From the NCBI GenBank assembly GCA_017428085.1, contig JAFRRP010000075.1:1-64000 (forward strand): 64,000 nucleotides of DNA, read 5' to 3'. Origin of the DNA: Clostridia bacterium (lineage in GTDB: Bacteria > Bacillota > Clostridia > Oscillospirales > Acutalibacteraceae). The position numbers and the translations under genes are program-made. The notes below the pieces were generated by a model. That model saw only the letters and a list, made by a program, of their open reading frames with translations. It ran no database searches and was not told the origin of the DNA. Positions 47,103-62,195 of the stretch are shown here, in pieces (the stretch's first letter is position 1; the number at the start of each line of letters is the position of its first letter).

Positions 47103-47230
47103 CAGACGGTCTGTCGACCGAAAAACGCAGCCTCCGCGGTTTGTTCCGCAGGGGTTGCGTTTCCTATCGGCTATCCGTTTTTTTTTGCACAGCTCCGGAC
47201 AGGCCCTTTCAGAAAATAGGCGGGGCAATA

Positions 47231-47259
47231 TTGACATCAAATGTTGAGGATATTATAAT
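47231..47259 (+). promoter_or_regulatory. consensus promoter of the giant dockerin protein gene
   Basis: Perfect TTGACA (47231-47236), 17-base spacer, perfect TATAAT (47254-47259), 43 bases upstream of the ATG. The strongest promoter in the window by match to consensus. Confidence 0.85.
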
Positions 47260-47301
47260 TTAATCAAAGTCCATGCAAATTCAATTGCGGAGGAATGATT
47301 C

Positions 47302-50300
47302 ATGAAAAGGCTTTTATCCGTTATCCTATGTCTGGGCATGTTGTTTACGTGCGCTCCGCTTGCGGCGCTGGCGGCGAACGATCCCATAAAGATCGTCTCC
47401 GTCACGGCGAACACCAACCAGAACTATGACAGCGATGAGATCACGGTGGAATTCACCGGCCCGACCGATTCGGATGCGGCGGATCGTTTCGCTGCCGAGC
47501 TGTGCTACACCTATCAGGCCAACGGGCATCCGTATACGGTGCGTCGCCGGGGCGGCAACGCGAGGGTGAACGACGAGGGGAGCTATACGCTCAAGATAGA
47601 AGCGCCGTACAGTCTGCTCGACGACGCTTTTCTCAAGCCGACCCTGGCGATCGTGACGATCGATAAGAACGGGGCCGAGACTCTCTCAAAGCCGATCCCG
47701 CTGACGGCGGCGCCTGAGAAAAGCCACTATTGCTCGCCGCTCAAAGTCACGGTGGGCGATAAGGTATATACCTACGGGCCGGGGCTCGACGAGGAAGGAA
47801 AGGTGAAAACCACCTTCCCGAAACAGGAAGAGAACGGCGTGTTCTTTGATCCGGACACCCGGACGCTGACTCTTTCCGGCGCCAGCGGCGCAAAGGTCGA
47901 GGCGGACTCGCTGACCGTGGGCAGGGATCTCAATAAGATCGTGCTGAACGGCGCGGTCTTTGATTCGATCCGTTTTTATGACCATAAACCCATCGAGATC
48001 GAGCTGATCGGCGCAAACGCGGGTAATCTGATCGCTCAGAACGACAGCGATATCTTCCTCAAGGGCGCCGACGGCGCGAGTCTGACCGGATATATCGACG
48101 CCAGCAGCGCCGCCTGCATCCTTTCCAACCTTGCGTGGACCGAGGCGGCGACGGGCCAGCGCAATTATACCGATCTGCACGCGATAACCGCGAACGCCGT
48201 CGCGTTTGACCGCTGTACCGCCAACCTCTCGAGTGAGAGCGTCAAGGAACCCGTCGTTTGTGTCGTCGGCTGGAACGACCTTTATATCAACGACAACGGC
48301 ATGATCCTGCGCGACTGCCCCGATTTCCGCGTCACGCACAAGCTGAAGGGCATTTGCTGTGAGGCGCGCGACTTCCTGATCGACAATTCGGAGCTGACGA
48401 TCACCGGCGTGCACGAAAGCGATACGAGTTCGGACCACCCGGATTTTGTCGGGATCGATGAAAAACGAAATTCGGTGGACATTACGCTTCAGAATCACGC
48501 GAAGCTCAACGTTGACATGACCCAAAACGGAAAGAGCAACTCCGTAAACGCTGTACGCTGCGAGATATTGACCGTGGACGGCAGCTCCGAGATCAACGCG
48601 AAGGTCCTCGCCTCCGAGACGGGCGAAGGCAGCATTTCCGGTATGTTCCCGCAGCAGCTTCACCTGTCCGGTAAAGTGCAGGTCGACGTGACGAACCGGA
48701 GCGGCGGCGGTGTGACCGGTCTTTCGATGGGCAAAGCAGAGCTTGACGGCGGTAAGCTCACGGTCAACGTGGATGGTAAGGCGACGATCTACGGCGTCAG
48801 CCCTGCGACGATCAAAATGAACAAAGCGTCTCTGACGGTGAACGCCGTCGGCCGCGTCGAGAGCGAGAACAAAGAACGCGTTTATCTTTTTAACGCCGGC
48901 ATCGACCAAACCATTATCGACAGCACGGTCGACCTGTCCTTCCTCCTGAACGGCACGGGCGGATATGATTTCTTTGAGTGTATGGATTTCTTCGGAACGA
49001 CCGAGATCCGGGGCTCGACCCTGCGCGTCGGCATACACAGCGCCCCGTCGAAGTTCAGCGCGAGGCGCTTCAGTCTGGTCTCCGACTACGTCGAGGCGAC
49101 CGAATCCTCCGTGCCGAAGATCATCGCGCGCGTCCCCGCCGATTATCTTTCTCTGGCGCAGGGGCAGGTAAACGCATTCGTTAAAAAGGCGTTCGATTCC
49201 AGCGTCGATATCTCCGCGTGTATCTGCACCGGGAATAAGATCGACGCCAACTGTATGAAATCCGCCATCTCCGAACCGGTCCGCAGTCTCACCGTGATCC
49301 TTCCGAAGGTGATCGCCGACAAAGCTGCGCAGTTGAATAAGTCGCGGCTCGTCGTCACCAAAAACGGCGAACAGAAGACGATATGGGAAGGACGCTCTCT
49401 TGCGGAGGGCGTGACTGCCTACGCCTTTTCGGAGGAGACGTATTCCGACGCGCAGTTACAGTCGCTGATCAGCGGAGCGTACAGAACGGTCGCCTATTAC
49501 GACGGCGCGTTTTCCAACAGCGGCGAGATCACGCTGAAGTCTTCCTTCGACAAAGATTTCTGTTACGTGGAAGGGATCCGTATCTCGGATACCGACGGCG
49601 GCCTCGTCAGCGGCGAGGCATACCGCGCGACGGTCACCGACGACAAAGGAAAAGTTTGGACGGTCCCGGGGTTCCTGACTGCCGGCAAGTATACCGTGAC
49701 GCTGGAGGGCAAGTCCTATTCAAAGCTGTACGACTACGCGGCGTTCAACAAAAGCAAAAATAACAGCTTTACCGCCGCGGACGGGGTCGTTTCGCTCAAG
49801 GGGCTTCGTCTGATCGTCCCGTCCGTTACGGTCTCCGGCACGGTCAAAGACGCCGACGGAAAGCCGCTGCCCGGCGTATTCGTACGCGCGGACCAGACGT
49901 ATAAAAACGGCTGCGGATTCTCCGTAACCGCGCAGACAGACACCGCCGGGAAATACCGTTTCACGCTTTTCGGCGCGGAAGCGGTCAACGGAAAAAACAG
50001 TTTTACCGCACAGTACGCGTCTTATCTGCTGTTGGATGCGGGCGGAAAAGTCATTGAAGGCAACCGGTTTGAGACGGAACCGCAGAAGAACGGCGCGACG
50101 CTCGACCTCACACTGAAAAAAATGCCGTCCTCGGTCGTTTCGCTCTCTTATTCCCTCGACAGGGAAGCCGTGAAAGACGAAGCGACGCAGAAATACCTGA
50201 CAAAACTTTCCAAAGGTTTTATCCTCTCCGGCGAGATCGACGGCAAACAGCTGAAGAATACATACAAAGGCAGCGCCGATCTCTCTTCGGGACAGTATTC

Positions 50301-53300
50301 TCTCTGGAACGGGGCGGATGCCGACTGCCTGATCAACGGCGGCAGGACTCTGAAGCTTTCCGTGAGTTCCGGCGCGTATTCGATCGCTGACAAGGAAAAG
50401 ACCGTAAAGCTCGACGCCGACAACTGCGCCGCGGCAACGCTCACCCTGTCCCCCCGCGCCGGCATCGTCGCCGCGATCCGGGCCCCAAAGCGCCAGGGAA
50501 TCGGTTCCTACGGCGCGGCGTGGTATAACGCGAAAGGGGAATACGTCGGTACGAGCAGTGAGCGTAAAATGATCGGCGACGAAATTCAGACGGTTTCTTT
50601 TGTCTCGCCGGTGAACGAGAGCGGCAGCTATACCGTTGTCTTCTCTCCCTTTAACGCGCCGGAAAAGCTTGCGGACGTCGACGCTTCGCTCACGCGTATT
50701 TCCGTCAAGCTTGTGAAAAACCGCGGCGTCGACGTGGGCAGCGTCACCGTCGACACGGCGGCGATCGAAAACATCGCGTTTATCACGAAACCGAATTCCA
50801 CCATCTCAGCGCCCGAGAGCTGGTCCTCGCAAAATGAGATCGTCCGCATGCCCGGGCATATCGAGACGGACGGAGATATCGCCGGCGCGCGTCTCTCCTC
50901 ACTGTCGTTTAAGGATTACCATACCACGTCGAAGTTCTACTGCACGCTTGACGCGGACGGCGACGGCGAGGCGGAGCGCTATGACGTGACGCTTTGGAAC
51001 GGCATCGGCTCCTTGAGTTTTAATAATCCGCCCGCGCTTCCGCTGGATTTTACGCTTTACGTGCTTCCGAACGCGGAGGGCAGCGTCCAGCTTGACGTGG
51101 CCGCAACGATCAAGCTCGCAGACGGTAAGACGCAGAGCGAGCAGTCGGTCGGTTCCGTGACGGTCGGCGCGCCCGGCGCCTATCTTGCCGCGCCGGAGCG
51201 TACCGTTTCGGAAACGGTCCCGGTCTCCGGCACAGCGCCGGCCCGCGAGCGCGTCCTCATTCTTGACGGCGATACCGTCGTCGCCGAGGTAAAGGCGAAC
51301 GTTAACGGCCGCTTTTCCGCCACGGTGACGCTCGTCGGCTGCGAGGAGGGCCGCGCTTCGCTGCACAAGCTTCGTTCCTCGTCCTCGGCGGGCGATTCGG
51401 AGCCTGCGACCGTCATTTATAACGCGAACGGCGCCGCGCTGCTTCGCAGCGGCTTTACGTATTCCGACAGACCCTCCTCCGACCGGTCCAGATATCAGAA
51501 GTACATCAGTTCCGACGGCGCCTATACCTTTACGCCTGCTCAGGAGCGCAACGGCATCTACGTGACGCTTTCCGCGGAATTTGCCAATCCGGACGAGATC
51601 AGAACGGATTATTCCGATCTGAACGTCGGCAAGCTGATGTCCTCGCCGGTCGTGTTCGCCATCCAGCTCATGAACGGCGAAGTGCAGTATTATCAGGGCA
51701 AACGCAGCGGAAAGACCGGCACTTTCCTTTCCGAGGAGTTCAAGATCTACAGCGCGATCAACCGCATCAGTGTGCTGTACGATACAAAACAGGACGTTTT
51801 CGCGCCGTCGGTCGACGGGATCCCGACCAGGACTGTCGGGCTTTCGTCCGTCCTTTCCGCCGCCGCCAAACAGAGCGTGCCGACGGGCAAACAGAGCGCG
51901 CAGCTGCGCGATAAGCTCAGCGAGGTCGGTCTGAACGTATCCGCCGGGTTGACGGACGCGCAGAACGCGATGAGCGCGCCGGAGCTGATGAACAGCCTGC
52001 GCAAGGACCTGGGCGCCATCCCGAAAAATAAGTTCGGCAGCATTGGTACCGACCGCGCCGTAACGGAAGCACAGTTCAAGAAGGACCTGGATTACGCGAA
52101 GGCGCGCGTCAAGGCGAACGCCGACGACGCCTCGCTGGAAGCCGTCGATGTCGTTGACGGCAACAAGACGCCCTATCGGTATCTCAGCTTCTCCGAGACC
52201 GACCCCGATAACGGAACGGTCTTTATGATGACGCTGATCGAAGATCTGAGCGGCAAGGACCCCGCCTATCATGAGACCGCGCTTTTGCTGACCGATGCGG
52301 AGCAGCCGCTGTCCGTCCCCGCGTCCGGCGGAAAGAAGGCGGCCAACGGAGGCAAACGTGCTCCGGATACGCGCGCGGCCGTGCGCAAGGCGGCGGCTCC
52401 TTCCAAAGCGACGGTCGTCTCCGGCTGCCTCGACGCAAGCGGCTTTATCCCGAGCTGGCTGGAATCCAGCGCAAAGGCGCTTGGCTATGTCAATGCGGAG
52501 AAATTCTTTTTCGGCTTCGGCAAGGGCATATCCATCGCCGGGATGGGCTTAAGCGTCTACGCGCATAATCAGACGAACAACGAATGTGAGGAACGGTTCC
52601 AGAAAGCGCTCCGCACGGTCTTTACTCCCTGCTATAATTCTCTTCCTGAAAAATGGCAGGAGATCATCAAAAGCAAGCTGAACGCTTTCAGCAAACTCAA
52701 CGTTGAAGCCTGGAGCATGAACAACGACACGCTCGCCGCCTCGCTCTTTACCGGCGCGATCAATCTGCTGGGCGGCAATCCTGTCTCGGAGGGCATCGCC
52801 GCGGTCGGCAATTTCTGCGGCAACTGGATCAACGACGATTATCAGAGCAACATCCAGAAAGAGCTTGAAATGATGCAGGACGATATCCGCAGGATCTATT
52901 ACAACAACGGCCTTGAGGTCACGGAGAACGAGGACTGCAAGAAGGTGCCGGACCGGAACATGAAAGCGCCGCGCGTCGGGCTCGATCCTTCCGGTTACGT
53001 CTATGAGGCGGTCGCATCCAACCGTGTCGAGGGGGCCGAGGTTACGCTGTATCAGAACGTGAAAGGCGTCAAAACGAAGGTGGCCGACGGTTCAGAGGAC
53101 ATCTTCGGCGCGGCGAATCCGCTGATCTCCGACGCGGACGGCCGTTATGAGTGGTTCGTCCCCGAGGGACTCTGGCTCGTCGAAGTAAAGGCGGACGGTT
53201 ATGTGCCGGCGGACAGCCAGAGCTGCACGAACATCAAGGAAGTCGAGAAGCGCGACGGATACACCTGGCTGCAGGTGCTGCCGCCGCAGACCGCCGTCAA

Positions 53301-54111
53301 TATCGGCGTTGTCTGCAAGGACGCGCCGTACATCAAAAATATCTTTGCCAAGAGCGACGGCGTTGAGATCGAATTCAGCCGCTATATGGATGAATCGACG
53401 CTTGTCCCGGCGAATTTCACGCTCAAAAACGCAAGCAGCCCCGTGAGCTTTACGGTCCGGAAGCTCAACAGCGAGAAAAGCCCCGTGAAGCCGGGCGTCA
53501 GCTATACGAGCCGGATCCTTCTGAAGACCGCGGAGCTGCCCATGAATACCGCGCTGACGGTCGGCGTTTCCGGCAGTGTGAAAAGCTATGCCGGCGTTGC
53601 GGCGGGCGATTCCTACAACGGCGTCGTAAAGACCGTGCAGGTCTACAAGCTGACGGTGAAAGGCGGGACGGCGGAGAAGAACGTCTACGCGTACCCCGCG
53701 GGCGCGTCTGTGACGATCACGGCGAACGCGCCGACTGCCGGCTTCGCGTTCTCCGGCTGGAAAACAACGGGCGTTGCGCTGCCCGATGCGCTGCATCCGA
53801 CCGTGACCTTTACCATGCCCGCGGGCGATGTGACCGTCACGGCGGGATACGCCGGTCACGCGCGCGGCGCGCAGGATAAGCAAAAAGAATACACCCCCGG
53901 CGACGTGGACGGCGACGGCAAGATCAGCTCCGCCGACGCGCGGCTGGCGTTGCGGCGGTCGGTCAGTCTGGAGAATTATCCCGAGGGCTCCGTGCAGTTC
54001 CTTGCCTGTGATGTGGACGGAGATAACAAAGTTTCCTCCGCCGACGCGCGCCTGATCCTTCGCGCTTCCGTTGGGTTGGAAGACGCGACAAAATGGAAGA
54101 AGCAGAAATAG
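47302..54111 (+). CDS. giant secreted multidomain protein with C-terminal dockerin
   Basis: 2269 residues, ribosome site GCGGAGGAATG. Signal peptide (1-25, ending LAALAA). Roughly 30-130 is an Ig-like domain; 170-620 a repetitive beta-helix-like region; near 840-900 a carboxypeptidase-regulatory-like domain (VSGTVKDADGKPLPGVFVRA); then several beta sandwiches, a helical part (1530-1880) and a second regulatory-like domain (VEGAEVTLYQNVKG). About 2110-2190 is a divergent InlB repeat (LTVKGGTAEKNVYAYPAGAS). Residues 2198-2262 are a type I dockerin: GDVDGDGKISSADARLALRR and CDVDGDNKVSSADARLILRA. The dockerin should bind a cohesin elsewhere. No catalytic motif was found, so an adhesin or scaffold role is likely. 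Confidence 0.85.
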   Translation: MKRLLSVILCLGMLFTCAPLAALAANDPIKIVSVTANTNQNYDSDEITVEFTGPTDSDAADRFAAELCYTYQANGHPYTVRRRGGNARVNDEGSYTLKIEAPYSLLDDAFLKPTLAIVTIDKNGAETLSKPIPLTAAPEKSHYCSPLKVTVGDKVYTYGPGLDEEGKVKTTFPKQEENGVFFDPDTRTLTLSGASGAKVEADSLTVGRDLNKIVLNGAVFDSIRFYDHKPIEIELIGANAGNLIAQNDSDIFLKGADGASLTGYIDASSAACILSNLAWTEAATGQRNYTDLHAITANAVAFDRCTANLSSESVKEPVVCVVGWNDLYINDNGMILRDCPDFRVTHKLKGICCEARDFLIDNSELTITGVHESDTSSDHPDFVGIDEKRNSVDITLQNHAKLNVDMTQNGKSNSVNAVRCEILTVDGSSEINAKVLASETGEGSISGMFPQQLHLSGKVQVDVTNRSGGGVTGLSMGKAELDGGKLTVNVDGKATIYGVSPATIKMNKASLTVNAVGRVESENKERVYLFNAGIDQTIIDSTVDLSFLLNGTGGYDFFECMDFFGTTEIRGSTLRVGIHSAPSKFSARRFSLVSDYVEATESSVPKIIARVPADYLSLAQGQVNAFVKKAFDSSVDISACICTGNKIDANCMKSAISEPVRSLTVILPKVIADKAAQLNKSRLVVTKNGEQKTIWEGRSLAEGVTAYAFSEETYSDAQLQSLISGAYRTVAYYDGAFSNSGEITLKSSFDKDFCYVEGIRISDTDGGLVSGEAYRATVTDDKGKVWTVPGFLTAGKYTVTLEGKSYSKLYDYAAFNKSKNNSFTAADGVVSLKGLRLIVPSVTVSGTVKDADGKPLPGVFVRADQTYKNGCGFSVTAQTDTAGKYRFTLFGAEAVNGKNSFTAQYASYLLLDAGGKVIEGNRFETEPQKNGATLDLTLKKMPSSVVSLSYSLDREAVKDEATQKYLTKLSKGFILSGEIDGKQLKNTYKGSADLSSGQYSLWNGADADCLINGGRTLKLSVSSGAYSIADKEKTVKLDADNCAAATLTLSPRAGIVAAIRAPKRQGIGSYGAAWYNAKGEYVGTSSERKMIGDEIQTVSFVSPVNESGSYTVVFSPFNAPEKLADVDASLTRISVKLVKNRGVDVGSVTVDTAAIENIAFITKPNSTISAPESWSSQNEIVRMPGHIETDGDIAGARLSSLSFKDYHTTSKFYCTLDADGDGEAERYDVTLWNGIGSLSFNNPPALPLDFTLYVLPNAEGSVQLDVAATIKLADGKTQSEQSVGSVTVGAPGAYLAAPERTVSETVPVSGTAPARERVLILDGDTVVAEVKANVNGRFSATVTLVGCEEGRASLHKLRSSSSAGDSEPATVIYNANGAALLRSGFTYSDRPSSDRSRYQKYISSDGAYTFTPAQERNGIYVTLSAEFANPDEIRTDYSDLNVGKLMSSPVVFAIQLMNGEVQYYQGKRSGKTGTFLSEEFKIYSAINRISVLYDTKQDVFAPSVDGIPTRTVGLSSVLSAAAKQSVPTGKQSAQLRDKLSEVGLNVSAGLTDAQNAMSAPELMNSLRKDLGAIPKNKFGSIGTDRAVTEAQFKKDLDYAKARVKANADDASLEAVDVVDGNKTPYRYLSFSETDPDNGTVFMMTLIEDLSGKDPAYHETALLLTDAEQPLSVPASGGKKAANGGKRAPDTRAAVRKAAAPSKATVVSGCLDASGFIPSWLESSAKALGYVNAEKFFFGFGKGISIAGMGLSVYAHNQTNNECEERFQKALRTVFTPCYNSLPEKWQEIIKSKLNAFSKLNVEAWSMNNDTLAASLFTGAINLLGGNPVSEGIAAVGNFCGNWINDDYQSNIQKELEMMQDDIRRIYYNNGLEVTENEDCKKVPDRNMKAPRVGLDPSGYVYEAVASNRVEGAEVTLYQNVKGVKTKVADGSEDIFGAANPLISDADGRYEWFVPEGLWLVEVKADGYVPADSQSCTNIKEVEKRDGYTWLQVLPPQTAVNIGVVCKDAPYIKNIFAKSDGVEIEFSRYMDESTLVPANFTLKNASSPVSFTVRKLNSEKSPVKPGVSYTSRILLKTAELPMNTALTVGVSGSVKSYAGVAAGDSYNGVVKTVQVYKLTVKGGTAEKNVYAYPAGASVTITANAPTAGFAFSGWKTTGVALPDALHPTVTFTMPAGDVTVTAGYAGHARGAQDKQKEYTPGDVDGDGKISSADARLALRRSVSLENYPEGSVQFLACDVDGDNKVSSADARLILRASVGLEDATKWKKQK

Positions 54112-54142
54112 TATCATCCTCCGCATGACCGATCAACAGTTG

Positions 54143-54192
54143 AAAGCGCATTCCCGTCGTTTCGTACGGGATGCGCTTCTTCTGTTTCTTTG
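54143..54192 (+). terminator. terminator after the giant dockerin gene
   Basis: Stem AAGCGCAT-CCCGT / ACGGG-ATGCGCTT (one bulged T) followed by TTCTGTTTCTTT. Confidence 0.75.
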
Positions 54193-54336
54193 GCTTTTCA
54201 CGGTTTTTTGTGGGATAGCGGCAGACAGGCATTTGTCAAAAATACACAAAAACCGGCGTTGTTTTTTTTACGGGGTATCCGCAAAAAATCGTCACAAGTG
54301 ACGATGCGCCGGCTTTTTTCAAGTGATAAAATAATA

Positions 54337-54696
54337 ATGACTCACTATATTTCATGTCTCGGCCACGATTACGTCACACTGGATCCTCCGGTCGAGCATC
54401 CCGCCACCTGCACCGAGGATCGGTACGTCGTAAAAACGGCATGCTCGCGCTGCGGAAAGGACGGCAGTACGACCACGACCCTGAACACGGCCGGTCACGT
54501 CGATGAAAACGGGGACAGTATATGCGACGACTGCGGCACGGCGATCACCGCGGAGACAAAAATGCGCGGCCGCACGCCCTCGGGCGGCGGAAATTCCGGC
54601 GGTTCCTCCTCCGGGAAATCGGGCGGCTTCTTCGATAAGATCGTCGAATTCTTCAGGAATATCATCAACTTCTTCAAAAATCTGTTCAGCAGATGA
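54337..54696 (+). pseudogene. orphan C-terminal piece of a surface protein
   Basis: 119 residues without signal peptide or good ribosome site. It has a Cys-pair repeat of the kind used in surface proteins (ATCTEDRYVVKTACSRCGKD; HVDENGDSICDDCG), a Ser/Gly linker and the hydrophobic end FFRNIINFFKNLFSR. The Cys-pair repeat is like those in the LRR-dockerin protein at 57675. Most likely the end of a larger gene whose front was lost. Confidence 0.6.
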
Positions 54697-54784
54697 TCCC
54701 GTCCGGTCCCTGTCCGGCCGCGCGCATTCATCAGGGCAACGGAGAACAGATCAGAGGCTGAAAAAGGGAATACCGACAGAAAAT

Positions 54785-54811
54785 CAGCGGGGCCTTTTCC
54801 GGGCCCCGCTG
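54785..54811. terminator. bidirectional terminator
   Basis: Perfect 10-base stem CAGCGGGGCC / GGCCCCGCTG with a 7-base loop and T-rich flanks on both strands, between two converging remnants. Confidence 0.8.
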
Positions 54812-54826
54812 TTGTTGAAAGAAGTG

Positions 54827-55147
54827 TTAATGCCTGCCGATCTTATGCAGCGGGAGCTGCTCGAAACCGGGGATCTCGTTGAACGCCGGCGCGTCGTCTC
54901 GCAGGGTGTAGTCGCCGTTGGCCGGATCGACGAACAGTTGTTCCATTTGATTCGGCTTGTATACCGCATTGTCGGAAACGTCGCTGAACCGGCAGACGAG
55001 ATCGTCGATCATGCCGATATCGCCGGGGCCGTTGACGATCAGGTTCCCGGTCACTTCGCTGTACGCGGGGTTGGTGACGTACCCGGGGTCCTCCGTCGCG
55101 TTGAAATCCTCCGTGATCCGCTGCAAAAGCGGAAATCGCATCGTCAA
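54827..55147 (-). pseudogene. C-terminal remnant of a right-handed beta-helix protein
   Basis: 106 residues: LLQRITEDFNATEDPGYVTN, NLIVNGPGDIGMIDDLVCRF, LFVDPANGDYTLRDDAPAFN, then EIPGFEQLPLHKIGRH. The phrase FVDPANGDYTLRDDAPAF is the usual ending of secreted beta-helix (pectate-lyase-like) proteins. There is no signal or catalytic part. With the neighbouring orphan tail, it marks another decayed spot. Confidence 0.65.
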
Positions 55148-55165
55148 ACATCCGCATATTTACGC

Positions 55166-55194
55166 TTGTAATTTCAGTCGTTTGGAACTATAAT
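55166..55194 (+). promoter_or_regulatory. promoter of the lipoprotein/dockerin paralogue operon
   Basis: TTGTAA (55166-55171), 17-base spacer, TATAAT (55189-55194), 37 bases upstream of the start at 55232. Confidence 0.7.
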
Positions 55195-55231
55195 GATAAC
55201 GGTATCACGAGTCGGATCGGAGGACATGACA

Positions 55232-56434
55232 ATGGGAAAAAATAAACGTCGGGCACATATTTTCCACGGAGGAATTTTCCCTCGCGCCGCGGTCTCGCTC
55301 CTCATTGTTTTTGCGTTTACGGCGATCCTTCCGGCCTGCGGCGGCGCAAAGCGCTTGAAAAACGACGTCGACAAGCCGATCGACAGCGTTGCCGGAACGG
55401 AAAGCTCCTTCACCGACACGGCGCCCGCCGAAGAAAGCGCCGCCGGGGACACAGCGGATGCGAAGGTGAACGTGGTCCCCACCGCCGCTTCCGCGTTGAC
55501 GCTTGTGGATAAGGATACGGAAGCGTTTACCATGCAGATCCCGGACGGCTGGGAGATGCGCTACGGCTGGGACGGGGAGAAGATGCTGCTGATCCGCGTC
55601 TACGATCCCGCGCAGCCGGTCAACCAGATCTTTTACGCGACCGATATGGTCCCGTTTATGAAAAGCGAAGCGTCCGCCGAAATGTACGCGAACAGCGGCA
55701 CGGTCATGTTCAGTGAAGCGCCCGTCCTCGACCCGCCGACGAACGAGACCCTGTTCAAACAGATCCCGAAGCTGCGGACCTATTATCTGGAAACGGTAAA
55801 ATCGGAAGCCACCGCCGCGATGATCCCCGAGATCTACAACTTCGAATTGCTGGAGACCCTTCCGGCGGCTTCTGCGTTCGGCGACGACAGCCTTGACGAC
55901 AGCATCCTCCACGGGACCTTCCGGACCGCGGACGGAAGCGCCGAAGGCGAGGGCATCGGCTTTGCCGCTATCGTGGATCTTTTCGGTACGATGCTAAGCC
56001 CGCTTTACGGCGTGGATATGGCCTATTACAACGTATACAATTTCACCGCCATCACCGGCGTGAAGGATGAATTCGTCAACTATGAGGAGATCCTCTGCCG
56101 GTCGTTTTCCTCGCTGCAGCTCAAGCAGGAATTTGTGGCGAAGATGCTGAAAAACAGCGAGGATTCCTTCGCGCAATTACAGCAGATCAACGCCTCGATC
56201 ACGGCTTCCTATTATAACTACAACAACGCCTGGCTCGCCAGATCCAGCTCCTCGGATATCGCCCGCCAGAAATACAGCGACGCTACGCTTGGCTATGAAA
56301 GAGTATACGACACCGAAACCGGAGAGATCTACAAGGCCTACAACGGTTTTACGGACGAATACACCGGTTCGCGCTACCAATCCGTTTCGGACGATATGTA
56401 CACGCAGGGTTGGGACGGATATATCGAAAGATAA
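55232..56434 (+). CDS. surface lipoprotein, paralogue of the next gene's protein
   Basis: 400 residues. ATG 55226 is only 2 bases after GGAGG, so ATG 55232 (8 bases) is used. Signal with lipid Cys in ILPACGG. After an acidic spacer the domain reads TMQIPDGWEMRYGWDGEKML, LIRVYDPAQPVNQIFYATD, APVLDPPTNETLFKQIPKLR, YEEILCRSFSSLQLKQEFV. The same domain is in the gene at 56487 with about 60% identical residues by eye. The C-terminal about 50 residues (ERVYDTETGEIYKAYNGFTD) are unique. Function unknown. Confidence 0.75.
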   Translation: MGKNKRRAHIFHGGIFPRAAVSLLIVFAFTAILPACGGAKRLKNDVDKPIDSVAGTESSFTDTAPAEESAAGDTADAKVNVVPTAASALTLVDKDTEAFTMQIPDGWEMRYGWDGEKMLLIRVYDPAQPVNQIFYATDMVPFMKSEASAEMYANSGTVMFSEAPVLDPPTNETLFKQIPKLRTYYLETVKSEATAAMIPEIYNFELLETLPAASAFGDDSLDDSILHGTFRTADGSAEGEGIGFAAIVDLFGTMLSPLYGVDMAYYNVYNFTAITGVKDEFVNYEEILCRSFSSLQLKQEFVAKMLKNSEDSFAQLQQINASITASYYNYNNAWLARSSSSDIARQKYSDATLGYERVYDTETGEIYKAYNGFTDEYTGSRYQSVSDDMYTQGWDGYIER

Positions 56435-56486
56435 AACGATCTCATCGTAACAACATGATAAGAACAGAGAAGGGAGTTCGATCATC

Positions 56487-57641
56487 ATGAAGAACAAAAC
56501 ATCCGCATCGGTGCGTGATGAAAACCGAAGGAACGCAAAAACGCGCAGAATGAGAAGCGCGCTTTCGCTCCTGCTGGCAGCGGTCCTGCTGTTTTCGGTC
56601 TGCGGCCTGCCGGTCACGGCGGCAAACCGGAAGCCCGGCGACGTGGACGGGGACGGAAAGATCACCTCCGCCGACGCCCGCCTTGCGCTGCGCAGATCGG
56701 TGGGGCTTGAGCCCTATAAGGAGAATTCGGCTGAATACGCGGCCTGCGACGTGGATTTCGACGGCAGCGTTTCCTCCGCGGACGCGCGCCTGATCCTGCG
56801 CGGCTCCGTGGGCCTGGAGGACACGACGAAATGGAAGAAGCCGACCGCGTCTGCCGTGCCGAAGAAGCTCGTTTCAAAGGATACGGTGGCGTTCACCATG
56901 CAGATCCCGGAGGGCTGGGAGCTGCGCTTCGGCTGGGACGGCGAAAAGATGCTGCTGATCCGGGTCTACGATCCCAAGCAGCCGGTCAACCAGATCTTCT
57001 ACGCGACCGATATTGTCCCGTTCATGAAAAGCGAAGCGGCCGCCCAATGGTATGGGCGCACCGGGACGAAGATGTTCAGCGAAGCGCCCGTCCTCGACCC
57101 GCCCACGAACGAAACGCTTTTCAAGCAGATCCCGAAGCTGCGCGATTATTTTCGGAATACGGTCAAATCGGAGGAGACCGTCGCGCTGCTGCCCGAGATC
57201 TACGATTTCCGCCTGATCCAGACGCTTCCCTCCAAGACGACGTCAAAGGAGTACGCCGGCCTTGACGAAAGCATCCTCTACGGGAGCTTCCGGAACGAAA
57301 ACGGCAGCGCGAAAGGCGAGGGCATCGGCTATGCCTCCATCCTGGACCATTTCGGCGCCTCTTTGACCGACCCGATCACCGGCATCGACCCGGCATATTA
57401 TTTCGTGTACAACCTCACCGCGATCACCAGCGCTGCGGGGACCTTCGCCGATTATCAGGAGATCCTTTGCCGGTCGTTCTCCACGCTGAAGCTCAAGGAT
57501 GATTTCGTCAAAAAAATGCTGAAAAACAGCGACGCGTTCTTTACCCAGGGGAAGGCGGTCAACGACTCGATCAACGGCGTGTATGAAAAGATCAACGCCG
57601 CCTGGGACGCCAGAATAAAGGGCGACGACCTTAAGAACTGA
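56487..57641 (+). CDS. secreted protein with N-terminal dockerin, paralogue of the preceding lipoprotein
   Basis: 384 residues, ribosome site AGAAGGGAG. A signal with a long basic front (helix ALSLLLAAVLLFSVCGLPV) is followed by a dockerin at about 50-110: KPGDVDGDGKITSADARLAL and CDVDFDGSVSSADARLILRG. Then the same domain as the lipoprotein before it: TMQIPEGWELRFGWDGEKML, VLDPPTNETLFKQIPKLRDY, YQEILCRSFSTLKLKDDFV. Thus one domain is displayed by two different anchors from one operon. No catalytic motif recognised. Confidence 0.8.
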   Translation: MKNKTSASVRDENRRNAKTRRMRSALSLLLAAVLLFSVCGLPVTAANRKPGDVDGDGKITSADARLALRRSVGLEPYKENSAEYAACDVDFDGSVSSADARLILRGSVGLEDTTKWKKPTASAVPKKLVSKDTVAFTMQIPEGWELRFGWDGEKMLLIRVYDPKQPVNQIFYATDIVPFMKSEAAAQWYGRTGTKMFSEAPVLDPPTNETLFKQIPKLRDYFRNTVKSEETVALLPEIYDFRLIQTLPSKTTSKEYAGLDESILYGSFRNENGSAKGEGIGYASILDHFGASLTDPITGIDPAYYFVYNLTAITSAAGTFADYQEILCRSFSTLKLKDDFVKKMLKNSDAFFTQGKAVNDSINGVYEKINAAWDARIKGDDLKN

Positions 57642-57674
57642 CCGCCCCGCGTGACGAAAGGATAGGATTGAAAG

Positions 57675-59231
57675 ATGAAACGTATCACCAGATGCCTCTC
57701 TCTGCTGCTGGCGGCCTGTATGCTGCTGTGCGTCGTTCCGGCGCGCGCCGCCGAAATCGTGGACAGCGGCACCTGCGACAAAGACTTTAAAAACGTCACC
57801 TGGGCGCTGGACGCCGACGGGGGCCTTGTGATCAGCGGGACGGGAGAGATGGAATACTTCCCTTGGAGAAGCCGGTATTTTACAACGATCAAGGCGGTGA
57901 TCATCACCAACGGCGTGACCGGTATCTGCGACTCCGCGTTTTACGAGTGCAATAAAATGCAGATCCTGTCGATCCCGAACACCGTGACGCGCATCGAGAA
58001 AGCCGCGTTTTACGACTGTAAATCGTTGACGGACGTATCGGTCCCGGACAGCGTGACAAGCCTCGGAGACAGCGCGTTCGCCCATTGCTGGGCGCTGGAG
58101 AAGATAACGCTCCCGAACGGCCTGACAAGCATCCCGACAAATCTGTTCTACGAGTGCATGAAACTGCCGGGAGTAACGATCCCGACCGGTGTGAAAAGCG
58201 TCGGGAAACGGGCGTTTTGCAAGTGTTACGGGCTGAAGAGCGTCAAGCTCCCGAAAAGCGTGACAAGTATTGAGGAATATGCGTTCGACGCCTGCGTCGG
58301 CTTGACGGACGTATATTACGAAGGCAGCGAGGCGAACTGGAAGGCGATCGCGATCAAAGACGGAAACACGGCTTTGGCATCTGCGAAGATCCATTACAAC
58401 CAGAAGATCGGCCCGTCCGCGCACACGCACAAATGGAACGCGGGCGTGGTCACATATGCGCCCGGCTGCGGAACGCCCGGCGTAAAGACCTATGCCTGCA
58501 GCGTGTGCGGGACGACGAAAACGGAGACGCTGCCGAAAACGAACGCCCACAAGTGGGACGCGGGCAAGGTTTATATGGAGCCCACCTGCGCGGCGGAAGG
58601 CGTGATGATCTACACCTGCTCCGTGTGCAAAGGCGAAAAGCGGGAACCCATCGCAAAAAAGAAAGAACATAACTGGAACCAGGGCGTCACCACAAGACCG
58701 GCCACCTGCGGCGTGGACGGCGTGAAGACCTATACCTGCATCGCGTGTCATACGACAAAGACGGAGACGATCCCGAAAACGAACGCCCATAAGTGGGATT
58801 CCGGCAAGGTGACGAAAGCCGCCACCTGCGGCGCGGACGGCGTAAAGACCTACACGTGCTCCGTTTGCAAGACGACAAAGACGGAGACGCTGGCAAAAAC
58901 GGGCGCCCATCAATGGGACAAGGGCGTATTTACGGCGCCCGACCGCAAAAATCTATCCGCGGTCAAAACCTATACGTGTTCCGTCTGCAAAACGACGGAA
59001 ACGGAAAAAATCAAGTATTTGCCCGGCGACGCGGACCGCGACGATCATATCACCTCCGCCGACGCGCGGCTCGCGCTGCGCAGATCGGTGGGGCTGGAAA
59101 GCTTTGAAAAAAACTCGCCGCAGTTTTTGGCGTGCGACGCGGATCGGGACGCCAACGTTACCTCGGCGGACGCGCGCCTGATCCTTCGCGCTTCCGTGGG
59201 GTTGGAAAATCCGAAAACGTGGGCCAAATGA
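57675..59231 (+). CDS. BspA-type leucine-rich repeat protein with Cys-pair repeats and dockerin
   Basis: 518 residues. Signal peptide (1-26). About 85-230 are LRR_5 repeats (ITNGVTGICDSAFYECNKMQ, IPNTVTRIEKAAFYDCKSLT, LPKSVTSIEEYAFDACVGLT). About 250-450 hold five repeats of about 40 residues with HKWxxG and CxxC (YACSVCGTTKTETLPKTNAH). The end is a dockerin (PGDADRDDHITSADARLALR; CDADRDANVTSADARLILRA) in which calcium-loop Gly residues are replaced. Likely an adhesin linked to a cohesin scaffold. It follows the dockerin paralogue by 33 bases. Confidence 0.85.
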   Translation: MKRITRCLSLLLAACMLLCVVPARAAEIVDSGTCDKDFKNVTWALDADGGLVISGTGEMEYFPWRSRYFTTIKAVIITNGVTGICDSAFYECNKMQILSIPNTVTRIEKAAFYDCKSLTDVSVPDSVTSLGDSAFAHCWALEKITLPNGLTSIPTNLFYECMKLPGVTIPTGVKSVGKRAFCKCYGLKSVKLPKSVTSIEEYAFDACVGLTDVYYEGSEANWKAIAIKDGNTALASAKIHYNQKIGPSAHTHKWNAGVVTYAPGCGTPGVKTYACSVCGTTKTETLPKTNAHKWDAGKVYMEPTCAAEGVMIYTCSVCKGEKREPIAKKKEHNWNQGVTTRPATCGVDGVKTYTCIACHTTKTETIPKTNAHKWDSGKVTKAATCGADGVKTYTCSVCKTTKTETLAKTGAHQWDKGVFTAPDRKNLSAVKTYTCSVCKTTETEKIKYLPGDADRDDHITSADARLALRRSVGLESFEKNSPQFLACDADRDANVTSADARLILRASVGLENPKTWAK

Positions 59232-59290
59232 TCATCCCGTAACGGAAACACGCCGATAGGGATTCTTGAAAGCAACACACCGCAAAAACA

Positions 59291-59355
59291 AAAAAGACAG
59301 AGGACGTTTTCCTGTCATTGTCCGTCGGGAAAAAACCGTCCTCTGTCTTCTGTTT
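59291..59355. terminator. bidirectional terminator between convergent operons
   Basis: 11-base stem GACAGAGGACG / CGTCCTCTGTC with inner pairing TTTTCC/GGAAAA, A-run before and T-run (TTCTGTTTTT) after. Confidence 0.85.
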
Positions 59356-59365
59356 TTCTGTTCGT

Positions 59366-59563
59366 TTATTTCGCCTTATAGTAGAGCATGCAGTGGCAGT
59401 AGCCCTCAAAATTCTCGTCGGCGATCTGCTCGCGGAATTCCCGGCACATGCACTTGGTCTCCTCGGTGCGTTCCCTGCGGCACGGGCAGTAGCCGCCGGT
59501 CTGCTTCAGGCCTTCCTTTACCGTATCCACGATCTCTTTGTTGGGGTTGAGCGTGATCTTCAT
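59366..59563 (-). CDS. ferredoxin-thioredoxin reductase catalytic-domain protein (short)
   Basis: 65 residues with six Cys in CPC (26-28), CMC (38-40) and CHC (56-58), the pattern of the 4Fe-4S and disulfide centre of FTR catalytic chains. It is far shorter than plant FTR and the spacing differs. Such stand-alone proteins in anaerobes may reduce thioredoxin-like disulfides with ferredoxin electrons (inferred). Last gene of the redox operon, 14 bases after the flavodoxin. Confidence 0.8.
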   Translation of the reverse strand: MKITLNPNKEIVDTVKEGLKQTGGYCPCRRERTEETKCMCREFREQIADENFEGYCHCMLYYKAK

Positions 59564-59577
59564 ATGCGTCCTCTCCT

Positions 59578-59991
59578 TTATTCTGCAAGAAATGATTTTG
59601 CGAAATCGGCGGCGGCTTTCAGGTCCTCCGCGTCCGGTCTGCCTTTATGAACGCCCTTGAACTCGCCGCGGCAGTGGAATTCTCTTGCTTCCATCGGGAT
59701 GCCGACCCGATCCGCTTCCGCCTTGACCTTTTTGTAGGTGGAATTCAGCATGGCGGCGGAGCCGAAATTGACGATTTTGCCCACCGTGTTTTTATCAAGC
59801 GACTGCACGAAGCGCCTGACCTCGGGATCGATGCTGAACGCGTAATAGGAATTGCCCAGAAACAGAAGATCCACCGGCCCGGCAACGGGTTCCGTGATGG
59901 GCAGCGCCTCCACGCCCAGCGCTTTTGCCACGGCCTCCGCCAGCCGTTTGGTGTTGCCCGTCTTGGTGTAGTATCTGACCGCGTATTTCAT
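59578..59991 (-). CDS. flavodoxin-like protein
   Basis: 137 residues. The FMN phosphate loop is YYTKTGNTKRLAEAVA at the N-terminus, followed by LLFLGNSYYAFSIDPEVRRF and VNFGSAAMLNST. Fold and length are those of short-chain flavodoxins. It probably passes electrons within the redox operon, perhaps to the FTR-like protein or the peroxidase system. Confidence 0.88.
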   Translation of the reverse strand: MKYAVRYYTKTGNTKRLAEAVAKALGVEALPITEPVAGPVDLLFLGNSYYAFSIDPEVRRFVQSLDKNTVGKIVNFGSAAMLNSTYKKVKAEADRVGIPMEAREFHCRGEFKGVHKGRPDAEDLKAAADFAKSFLAE

Positions 59992-60033
59992 TCTCTCTTC
60001 CTCCTGTTTTTGTGGTAAAACATATTCTGTGCG

Positions 60034-61173
60034 TCAATCGGACACGTCGATGTCCGGTACGATCTGGACCTGATAATCCGGATAAAGCGCGCTGACTTCG
60101 CGGTACAGGACCTCCATTGCGTCTTTTCTGTCCGCGTCAAAGCTGACGACCACGTCGAAGCGGACGGTTTTCTTTTCGGTGTCCGCGTAGAAGCCGTGCA
60201 TCTGCAGCGCCCAGTCGTGGGACAGGACCGTTTGTTGGATCGTATTGCGCATCCGCGCCGCCTCGTCGTCGGAAGTGTTGTAGGAGTAGACGCCGATCCC
60301 CGTCAGGATCACGCCGGTCTTCCGGAAGACGTCGGTCTGTATCCTGCGGGTGATCCTGTCCACGTCGTCCACGCTCAGATGATCCGGCAGCTCGACATGT
60401 ACCGAACCGTAGTTCCTGTTCGGGCCGTAATTGAACAGCGTGACGTCATATGCGCCGCGCACCGCGTCTTCCGCGCAGATGATCTCTTTCAGTTCCCTTG
60501 TCGTTTCCGCGTCCCCGCGCTTGCCGATGATATCGTTGAGCGTTTCGATCATGATCTCGATACCGGCCTTGATGATAAAGCCCGCGATCACAACGCCCAC
60601 GTACGCCTCCAGCGAGATCCCCCAGAGCAGGAAGACGACCGCCGAAGCCAGCACCGAGCCGGACAGGACGGCGTCGAACAGCGCATCTGAGCCGGAAGCC
60701 GCCAGCGCGCCGGAGTTGACCTTTTTGCCCTGCCGCTTCACGTACACGCCGAGGGCCAGCTTGACCGCGATGGCGACGGTTATGATGACGAGCGAAGCCG
60801 CGCCGTATTCCGCCTCCTCCGGCATGATGATCTTTTTGACGGATTCCACCAGCGAGGTGACGCCCGCGTAAAGCACGAGGGCCGCCACGATCATGGAACT
60901 CAAGTATTCGATCCTGCCGTAGCCCAGCGGGTGCTTTTTGTCCGGCTGTTTCGCGCCGAGCTTGGCGCCGATGATGGTCACGACGGACGAGAGCGCGTCG
61001 GACAGATTGTTGACTGCGTCAAGGATCACGGCGATCGAATGAGATAATACGCCGACGGACGCCTTGAACGCCACCAGCAGCAGATTCGTCACGATCCCGA
61101 CGACGCTGGTTCTGACGATGGTTTTTTCCCGGTCCGCGGCCAGCGCGGCCAGATCCTTTTCCTGTTCGTTCAT
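60034..61173 (-). CDS. cation diffusion facilitator family transporter
   Basis: 379 residues. Six membrane helices with the CDF signature SHSIAVILDAVNNLSDALSS (the Asp residues bind metal), then HPLGYGRIEYLSSMIVAALV and ASGSDALFDAVLSGSVLAS. The C-terminal domain (about 210-300) is cytoplasmic and a further about 80 residues extend it (DVVVSFDADRKDAMEVLYRE). It exports divalent metal such as Zn, Mn or Fe. In an OhrR-led operon, manganese or iron balance during oxidative stress is plausible. Confidence 0.9.
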   Translation of the reverse strand: MNEQEKDLAALAADREKTIVRTSVVGIVTNLLLVAFKASVGVLSHSIAVILDAVNNLSDALSSVVTIIGAKLGAKQPDKKHPLGYGRIEYLSSMIVAALVLYAGVTSLVESVKKIIMPEEAEYGAASLVIITVAIAVKLALGVYVKRQGKKVNSGALAASGSDALFDAVLSGSVLASAVVFLLWGISLEAYVGVVIAGFIIKAGIEIMIETLNDIIGKRGDAETTRELKEIICAEDAVRGAYDVTLFNYGPNRNYGSVHVELPDHLSVDDVDRITRRIQTDVFRKTGVILTGIGVYSYNTSDDEAARMRNTIQQTVLSHDWALQMHGFYADTEKKTVRFDVVVSFDADRKDAMEVLYREVSALYPDYQVQIVPDIDVSD

Positions 61174-61186
61174 CTCGTTTTCTCTT

Positions 61187-61735
61187 TCAGCCGAGCAGCG
61201 CTTCCACGGCCGCCCGGACTTCCTTCATATCCGCGGTGGGCTCAAAGCGGGCGACGACCCTGCCCTCACGGTCAACGAGGAACTTGGTGAAGTTCCATTT
61301 GATATACGCCTTGTCGCCGAACGCCTTGTTGTTGGCCTTGGCGAACGTGTTCAGCGCCGCGCTTTTTAAGCCTTTGCCGAACCCGGCGAAGGGCTTTTCC
61401 GTCGCCAGGAACGCGAACAGCGGATCGGCCGTCTCGCCGTTGACGTCGATTTTGGCGAACTGCGGGAACTCCGTGCCGAATTTCAGCGTGCAGAATTGAT
61501 GGATCTCGTCCGCGTCGCCGGGGGCCTGGTTGGCGAACTGGTTGCAGGGGAAATCCAGGATCTCAAAGCCCTTGTCCTTCAGGTCTTTGTACATCTCCTC
61601 CAGCGGCTCGTAGTGCGGCGTGAAGCCGCAGCCCGTGGCGGTGTTCACGATCAGCAGCGCCTTGCCGCTGTATTCCGAAAGCGAAACCTCATTCCCCGTT
61701 CTGTCCTTGACCGTAAAATCATAGACCGTTTTCAT
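61187..61735 (-). CDS. glutathione peroxidase-family thiol peroxidase
   Basis: 182 residues: VYDFTVKDRTGNEVSLSEYS, the active site NTATGCGFTPHYEPLEEMY (peroxidatic Cys), LDFPCNQFANQAPGDADEI (Gln and resolving Cys) and KWNFTKFLVDREG (Trp-Asn). Active-site Cys, not selenocysteine. In Firmicutes such enzymes use thioredoxin rather than glutathione to reduce peroxides. It is the first gene after the MarR-type regulator. Confidence 0.93.
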   Translation of the reverse strand: MKTVYDFTVKDRTGNEVSLSEYSGKALLIVNTATGCGFTPHYEPLEEMYKDLKDKGFEILDFPCNQFANQAPGDADEIHQFCTLKFGTEFPQFAKIDVNGETADPLFAFLATEKPFAGFGKGLKSAALNTFAKANNKAFGDKAYIKWNFTKFLVDREGRVVARFEPTADMKEVRAAVEALLG

Positions 61736-61757
61736 GTGTCATTGCCTCCTGTATTAT

Positions 61758-62195
61758 TTATTTTTGACCGTTCAATAATTCATACAACAGCGTGTAGAGC
61801 GCGCGCGCCTTTTCCGGCGGCAGATCGACGCAGCCCGCCGCTTTCAGCGGCACGTCTTTTGCCTGTAACTGTAAGTCCCTGCCTTTGTCGGTCAGGGTGA
61901 TCACCACCACGCGCTCGTCCTCGGCGCTGCGACGACGCTCGATATAGCCCGCCTGCTGCAGCTTTTTCAGCAGCGGCGAAAGTGTGCCGTTGTCCAGCAG
62001 CAGCTTTTCGCCGATGTCGCCCACGGTGACCCCGTCCTGCTCCCACAGCACCAGAAACACCAGGTACTGCGTATAGGTCAGCCCCAGAGGGCTCAACAGG
62101 GGCGTATATAAATTCGTCACGTTACGCGCCGCGGCGTACAGGGGAAAACAGAGCTGGTTTTTCAGCTTCATCGCCTCGCGGTAATCGTATGCCAT
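61758..62195 (-). CDS. OhrR-type MarR regulator of the redox operon
   Basis: 145 residues, start ATG 62195 with ACGGAGG. The N-terminal KLKNQLCFPLYAAARNV has the peroxide-sensing Cys16 of OhrR. The winged helix follows: LTYTQYLVFLVLWEQDGVTV, IGEKLLLDNGTLSPLLKKLQ, RRRSAEDERVVVITLTDKG. It should repress the operon until oxidised by organic peroxide. A longer frame upstream was rejected. It leads genes for peroxidase, CDF transporter, flavodoxin and FTR. Confidence 0.88.
   Translation of the reverse strand: MAYDYREAMKLKNQLCFPLYAAARNVTNLYTPLLSPLGLTYTQYLVFLVLWEQDGVTVGDIGEKLLLDNGTLSPLLKKLQQAGYIERRRSAEDERVVVITLTDKGRDLQLQAKDVPLKAAGCVDLPPEKARALYTLLYELLNGQK

Follow-up and report, generated by a model that had tools for sequence, protein, structure and literature searches.

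Two adjacent genes of a gut bacterium that is kin to rumen species encode one ancestral module on two different predicted anchors, a lipid on the first protein and a dockerin on the second, P0002. Both lie in the window, by which we mean the whole 64,000-nt stretch of DNA that was analysed (Table 1). On balance, we think it probable that the pair arose by tandem duplication of a lipoprotein gene with a Mog1/PsbP-like extracellular module, and that the second copy exchanged its lipid-anchor segment for a signal peptide and a dockerin and lost its C-terminal tail. For the first copy, the attached lipid would itself provide the hold on the membrane. The second would be secreted and would plug, with Ca2+, into the single cohesin on one of two lipoproteins encoded elsewhere. 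The same core would reach the cell surface by two routes, one permanent (lipid) and one exchangeable (dockerin), and the exchangeable route, with its two cohesin types, would also serve some 57 further dockerin proteins. Most likely, the core is a binding adaptor without catalytic activity; the tail would bind a conserved partner touched only by the lipid-anchored copy.

Table 1. Features of the gene pair, its surroundings and the two cohesin genes. Positions are those of the window unless a locus is named.
Feature	Position	Strand	Basis
2269-aa secreted protein with C-terminal dockerin, upstream of the pair	47302..54111	+	Pfam; end matches P0002 fusion point
Sigma-70-like promoter candidate TTGTAA-17-TATAAT, directly 5' of the lipoprotein gene	55166..55194	+	10/12 matches
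Ribosome-binding site GGAGG	55219..55223	+	8 nt 5' of ATG 55232
Lipoprotein copy, 400 aa	55232..56434	+	ATG 55232; stop ends 56434; longer ORF P0001 from 55193
Signal peptide and lipobox ILPAC (predicted), Cys36 codon 55337-55339	55232..55339	+	lipobox by eye
Mog1/PsbP-like core of lipoprotein (predicted)	55478..56266	+	model; core/tail border from tail-versus-core identity comparison
55-residue tail QKYSDATLGYERVYDTETG...GYIER, missing from P0002	56267..56431	+	alignment
Dockerin-tagged copy P0002, 384 aa, secreted (predicted)	56487..57641	+	ORF, BLASTP
Type I dockerin of P0002, N-terminal, two canonical Ca-loops	56634..56795	+	Pfam, structure model
Dockerin end ..SVGLEDTTKWKK passing into module at PTA	56796..56840	+	sequence
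Mog1/PsbP-like core of P0002 (predicted), without tail	56841..57638	+	BLASTP, model
LRR protein of BspA type, dockerin at its C-terminus; probably the third gene of the operon	57675..59231	+	Pfam; 33 nt gap
Single-cohesin lipoprotein (predicted), FLLAGC-GKKH then Thr-rich linker, cohesin C-terminal	L092:8299-9111 (contig C32; cohesin at C32:20673-21107)		
Single-cohesin lipoprotein (predicted), GMAAC-SGGK, cohesin C-terminal	L092:10519-11052 (contig C32; cohesin at C32:22614-23048)		

We found the two genes to be adjacent and co-directional and to carry the same module, as the first-pass annotation had claimed. Frameshifts, which it had named as grounds against its reading, were looked for in the translations, and neither gene has a frameshift or an internal stop. 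A single BLASTP comparison of the proteins gave 63% identity over 264 aligned residues (E 4e-120); this bears out the claimed relatedness, well above what chance would give, over a length greater than the claimed 230 or so residues. The intergenic gaps are 52 nt from the lipoprotein gene to P0002 and 33 nt from P0002 to the gene of an LRR-dockerin protein, all three genes being co-directional. A + strand terminator was called in neither gap, and the three genes look co-transcribed, as one operon. Their expression is predicted. The candidate promoter is a consensus match only, from a scanned region with 5 promoter-like sites where 2.3 were expected, and no Rfam matches were found across 45000-62000.

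At its N-terminus, the lipoprotein has a hydrophobic segment, then ILPA, then Cys36. The strict lipobox pattern excludes Pro at -2, the position at which Pro stands here. The lipobox that had been claimed for this protein is a candidate: it falls outside the strict pattern, but Cys36 follows the hydrophobic segment and occupies a column common to six other lipoproteins of alignment A1. An identical ILPAC is found in one relative (L064), and a lipobox-like N-terminal Cys is present in 37 related genes by manual count. We expect this copy to be lipidated. The signal peptide of P0002 also contains a Cys, which aligns with the lipobox Cys, and it was considered as a vestigial lipobox. This candidate was rejected: Val precedes the Cys, and signal peptides of other dockerin proteins here likewise contain a Cys at about this place.

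The N-terminal dockerin reported for the second gene was confirmed by its match to PF00404 (35.5 bits against a cut-off of 22.9 in Pfam, and 39.1 bits in the genome search) and by a structure model with a dockerin fold, which aligned with 8x39_A (Z 9.9, rmsd 1.9, 70 aligned) and with 1ohz_B (Z 8.2, rmsd 1.3, 56 aligned). The F-hand Ca-loop motif has Asp at positions 1, 3, 5 and 12, and both loops of P0002, DVDGDGKITSAD and DVDFDGSVSSAD, were found by eye to be intact, with Asp at each of these positions. This dockerin would be expected to bind a cohesin. P0002 reads ..SVGLEDTTKWKK-PTASAVPKK.., and in the BLASTP alignment the module of the lipoprotein copy likewise starts at PTA. The fusion point matches the natural ends of two large dockerin proteins that this genome encodes, namely the 2269-aa neighbour, whose C-terminal dockerin ends ..SVGLEDATKWKKQK-stop (KWKKQK-stop), and a protein on contig C72, which ends ..GLEDATKWKKA-stop. 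Most simply, this would be an in-frame fusion that passed through the point at which a C-terminal dockerin naturally stops, with the event probably running toward P0002.

The 2269-aa protein has an orthologue in another genome, G186 (77% over 2201 aa), just upstream of the dockerin-tagged relative L091. We considered the 2269-aa protein and the module gene as a conserved functional unit and rejected this as unproven, because only two of the four genomes with a close orthologue (the window's and G186, not G413 or G017) place a module gene beside it. The G186 orthologue is L185 (contig C108, 6569-13645), and the C-terminal dockerins of the two proteins are only 48% identical, as if dockerins changed faster than their carriers. 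Between the 2269-aa gene and the operon lie two short ORFs, 54190-54696 (+) and 54827-55147 (-), that resemble remnants of secreted proteins; a strong terminator-like stem follows the latter.

Dockerins are usually taken as tickets to a cellulosome, and the first-pass annotation had placed P0002 on a cohesin scaffold. Our cohesin inventory does not support this placement. The genome search returned 58 dockerin matches and two cohesins above the Pfam cut-off, both single and both on short predicted lipoproteins of one locus (L092, positions 12000-28947 of contig C32 in the window's genome, G000). Both cohesin genes lie near genes that look dnaG- and rpoD-like by eye. The first cohesin is missed by hmmscan of the whole protein and reaches 32.2 bits without the Thr-rich part, while the second scores 24.0 bits in hmmscan, against a cut-off of 24.1, and 24.4 in the genome search. 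A sequence search of the PDB with the two cohesins gave no match at E<=0.1. When a profile of the two was run against the window's genome at E<=10, the only further hit, a weak one at C72:23951 (E 0.063), was rejected as a third cohesin, since on inspection by eye it is a glycoside hydrolase of GH3-like type. A cohesin match at E<=0.01 is present in 26/26 genomes of the genus. Across 29 fetched cohesin loci, the two-cohesin profile identified 19 ORFs, all with an initial hydrophobic stretch ending in Cys, and 14/19 satisfy a strict regex; predicted lipoproteins similar to the two are thus present throughout the genus. Because the only detectable cohesins are single and each is on its own predicted lipoprotein, P0002 is probably returned to the membrane through a lipoprotein cohesin rather than carried on a scaffold.

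The opposing view is that copy 1 sits on the membrane and copy 2 on a polyvalent, cellulosome-like cohesin scaffold whose gene is missing or broken in the assembly. In its favour are the 58 dockerin matches and the larger cohesin sets of some congeners (up to 14 matches, in G001, and 11 in G022). Repeats such as scaffoldins break assemblies, and since this one is 95.67% complete in 80 contigs, a scaffoldin may have been missed. We nevertheless hold this view to be rather unlikely, given that no scaffoldin with several cohesins in one polypeptide was found in that assembly and that the two-cohesin profile turned up nothing else credible at E<=10 beyond two cohesins that are both on lipoproteins. 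That P0002 is released as a public good and docks on the cohesins of nearby cells seems very improbable to us: dockerins are diffusible by design and related genera carry cohesins, but this genome has predicted surface cohesins of its own.

In overlapping samples of genomes, the module was found in 3/26 genomes of the genus, 12/397 of the family, 18/394 of the order and 12/391 of the class. Besides the window's two, the genes recovered comprise 37 distinct lipoprotein genes (counted manually, with repeat rows merged by hand), four dockerin-bearing relatives (L072, L073, L084, L091) and three fusions with the module at the C-terminus of a thermolysin-type M4 metalloprotease (L085, L086, L145; Pfam M4 confirmed on L085 only). 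There are also one further secreted protein (L152), five fragments or remnants, and L089, which has the same kind of TTEAP linker and whose sequence ends before any dockerin. The Clostridia relatives are mostly predicted lipoproteins, with a minority bearing dockerins or M4 fusions. As in the window, the dockerin copies of L072 and L073 lie directly downstream of a lipoprotein copy; the former consists of two DUF6273-type domains, dockerin, linker and module, and the latter is a shorter version (Pfam was run on L072 only).

On a 35-row tree, these two dockerin copies group with their own lipoproteins (100/97), apart from P0002, which forms a clade with the G186 copy (99/93). This clade indicates that the duplication predates the split of the two genera. 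The dockerin label needs five changes on the tree (gains or losses), four of them forced by starred branches, which indicates that anchors have been swapped repeatedly in the family. Shuffled labels needed as few as five changes in 134/500 cases, and the label is therefore scattered rather than clustered. Dockerin matches were counted in the 29 module-bearing genomes, a set outside which the named MAGs with L072 and L073 fall. Where a dockerin-tagged copy is present, the matches number 58 (G000), 43 (G085) and 109 (G186), and G413, which carries L089, has 65. The remaining 25/29 have 0-45, with G008 at 45 and no dockerin copy. In these small numbers, the tag is seen on the module where dockerins are plentiful. 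One 10-kb contig of G008 (C311) carries two divergent lipoprotein members, L071 and L187, together with genes resembling sortase B and a protein in which a dockerin comes straight after the signal peptide.

Between the lipoprotein and P0002 we obtained dN 0.27 and dS 0.59, compared with dN 0.14 and dS 1.04 between the lipoprotein and its orthologue L068. The resulting dN/dS of about 0.45 versus about 0.13 indicates that both copies are constrained, and that P0002 is less so and evolves faster. Third-position identity of the copies is 0.80-0.87 across core codons about 20-80; in the rest of the core it is mostly 0.50-0.67, apart from one more interval at 0.83. The pattern suggests local gene conversion between the copies at codons about 20-80, so dS between them is no clock. 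A sister of P0002 in G186 (L155, contig C12, about 1511-2074) is decayed, with only its last 111 residues left, downstream of a lipoprotein copy. Because of its faster evolution, and because this sister is a C-terminal remnant only, P0002 could be dispensable. A stronger version would make it a duplication by-product that is being lost and whose display is functionless, as its missing tail, its faster protein change and the remnant in the same lineage might suggest. We regard this as improbable in view of the intact frame and Ca-loops, the visible purifying selection (dN below dS), a duplication older than the two-genus split, the suggested gene conversion, and the dockerin-tagged members outside the P0002 lineage.

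The first-pass annotation had not recognised the shared domain, and we likewise found no credible family for the core in the two window proteins with Pfam or NCBIfam, nor with Pfam among eight members at E<=1. A sequence search of solved structures (PDB) with alignment A1 gave 0 matches. Structure prediction and remote homology search, which that annotation had proposed, pointed to a fold. A model of the lipoprotein core, built from 12 sequences (mean pLDDT 74.0), had PsbP as its best Foldseek matches (E 1.5e-5, probability 1.00). In the VIA comparison it aligned with cyanobacterial PsbP at Z 8.4 and rmsd 4.4 over 133 residues, with MTC28, Mog1, EagT6 and LpqN further down the list. A second model, of P0002 (mean pLDDT 77.7), has the same fold (Z 7.8). 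With Z values that are only moderate and models that rest on 12-14 sequences, we take the core to have a Mog1/PsbP-like fold but to stand outside every named family of that fold. The P, G and W of an IPxGW motif are the sole invariant columns among 18 diverse members. Judging by its fold class and by the fusions to M4 proteases, the core most likely binds rather than catalyses, as a binding adaptor; an accessory role of the module would fit the three M4 fusions. Several bacterial Mog1/PsbP-like members are lipoproteins or secreted proteins.

The two copies also differ in the tail. The first-pass annotation had the same domain displayed twice, which is true of the core but not of the conserved 55 residues that end the lipoprotein. 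P0002 stops just short of them, as does its sister remnant in G186, and the two copies therefore are not an equivalent display. The tail is far more conserved than the core, and by alignment no other part of the family is as well conserved: compared with the window's lipoprotein, L065 is identical at 45/55 tail and 48/250 core positions (82% vs 19%), and L067 at 43/55 and 62/250. The family consensus, from 33 distinct tails in 40 tail-reaching ORFs among 56 matched ORFs, is roughly SDatlgYERVyDteTG.iYrAynGf.D.y.g..RY.p..T.dd.mY....GyIek. It is likewise absent from the M4 fusions and from two lipoproteins, L082 and L090. Since the dockerin-bearing L084 and L091 retain the tail and the lipoprotein L082 does not have it, tail loss is not a general mark of dockerin copies. 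The tail alone had no match in Pfam or NCBIfam at E<=10 and none in plasmids; its DNA pattern was not found in viral contigs, nor did the whole lipoprotein have a relative there. We infer that the tail is a recognition element for a conserved partner, needed by the lipid-anchored copy. Small, uncharacterised and strikingly conserved across Clostridia lipoproteins, it is the best lead from this analysis.

The genome thus presents 58 dockerin matches and two apparent sockets, both on predicted lipoproteins, together with one module that has either anchor in adjacent genes. The same core with two anchors in one operon offers a direct test of what a dockerin gives a surface protein. Tentatively, we suggest as possible rather than probable that lipobox and dockerin are interchangeable anchors in these bacteria, the module having moved several times from a lipid anchor to a dockerin. 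As the cohesins that would receive it are lipoproteins with a single domain, the genome's whole dockerin repertoire would then serve a modular, exchangeable membrane surface and not a cellulosome, and the tail would recognise a conserved envelope partner. A literature search that covered few subscription journals returned no lipoprotein/dockerin paralogue pair and no lipoprotein single cohesins, and in it 'dockerin' and 'PsbP' never occurred together.

In its predicted fold the core resembles the Mog1/PsbP-like proteins (PsbP, Mog1, LpqN, MTC28, DcrB, EagT6/SciW). It differs from them in an extra C-terminal helix and the tail, in its fusions to dockerins or M4 proteases, and in having no Pfam sequence match at E<=1 by which it could be assigned to them. 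Earlier work has described unknown modules with dockerins, LRR-dockerin proteins, and ruminococci with many dockerins and few cohesins (PMC2930009, PMC4081043). Ruminococcus flavefaciens FD-1 has dockerins on many uncharacterised modules in a set of 118 proteins, LRR-dockerin proteins among them, and a SIGN-Doc-SERPIN protein with the dockerin right after the signal peptide (PMC2930009), all of which is matched here. A lipoprotein paralogue is not mentioned in the accessible part of that paper, where the word 'lipoprotein' occurs 0 times. Ruminococcus albus has dozens of dockerins and one or no cohesin protein, and R. flavefaciens has single-cohesin scaffoldins in which the cohesin is joined to a segment without an assigned function (accessible part of PMC4081043, with 'lipoprotein' again 0 times). 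The window's genome resembles R. albus in its many dockerins and few cohesins and R. flavefaciens in its single cohesins, but the R. albus cohesin bears a dockerin, whereas the two single cohesins here are on predicted lipoproteins. Surface cohesins of cellulosomes are anchored by sortase, as in ScaE, or belong to SLH-anchored cell-surface proteins, according to the accessible parts of PMC4081043 and PMC5817068. Compared through the cohesin domain only, the present system would resemble them in that a cohesin at the cell surface takes up dockerin-bearing proteins, and would differ in its anchor, a predicted lipid on a single-cohesin protein.
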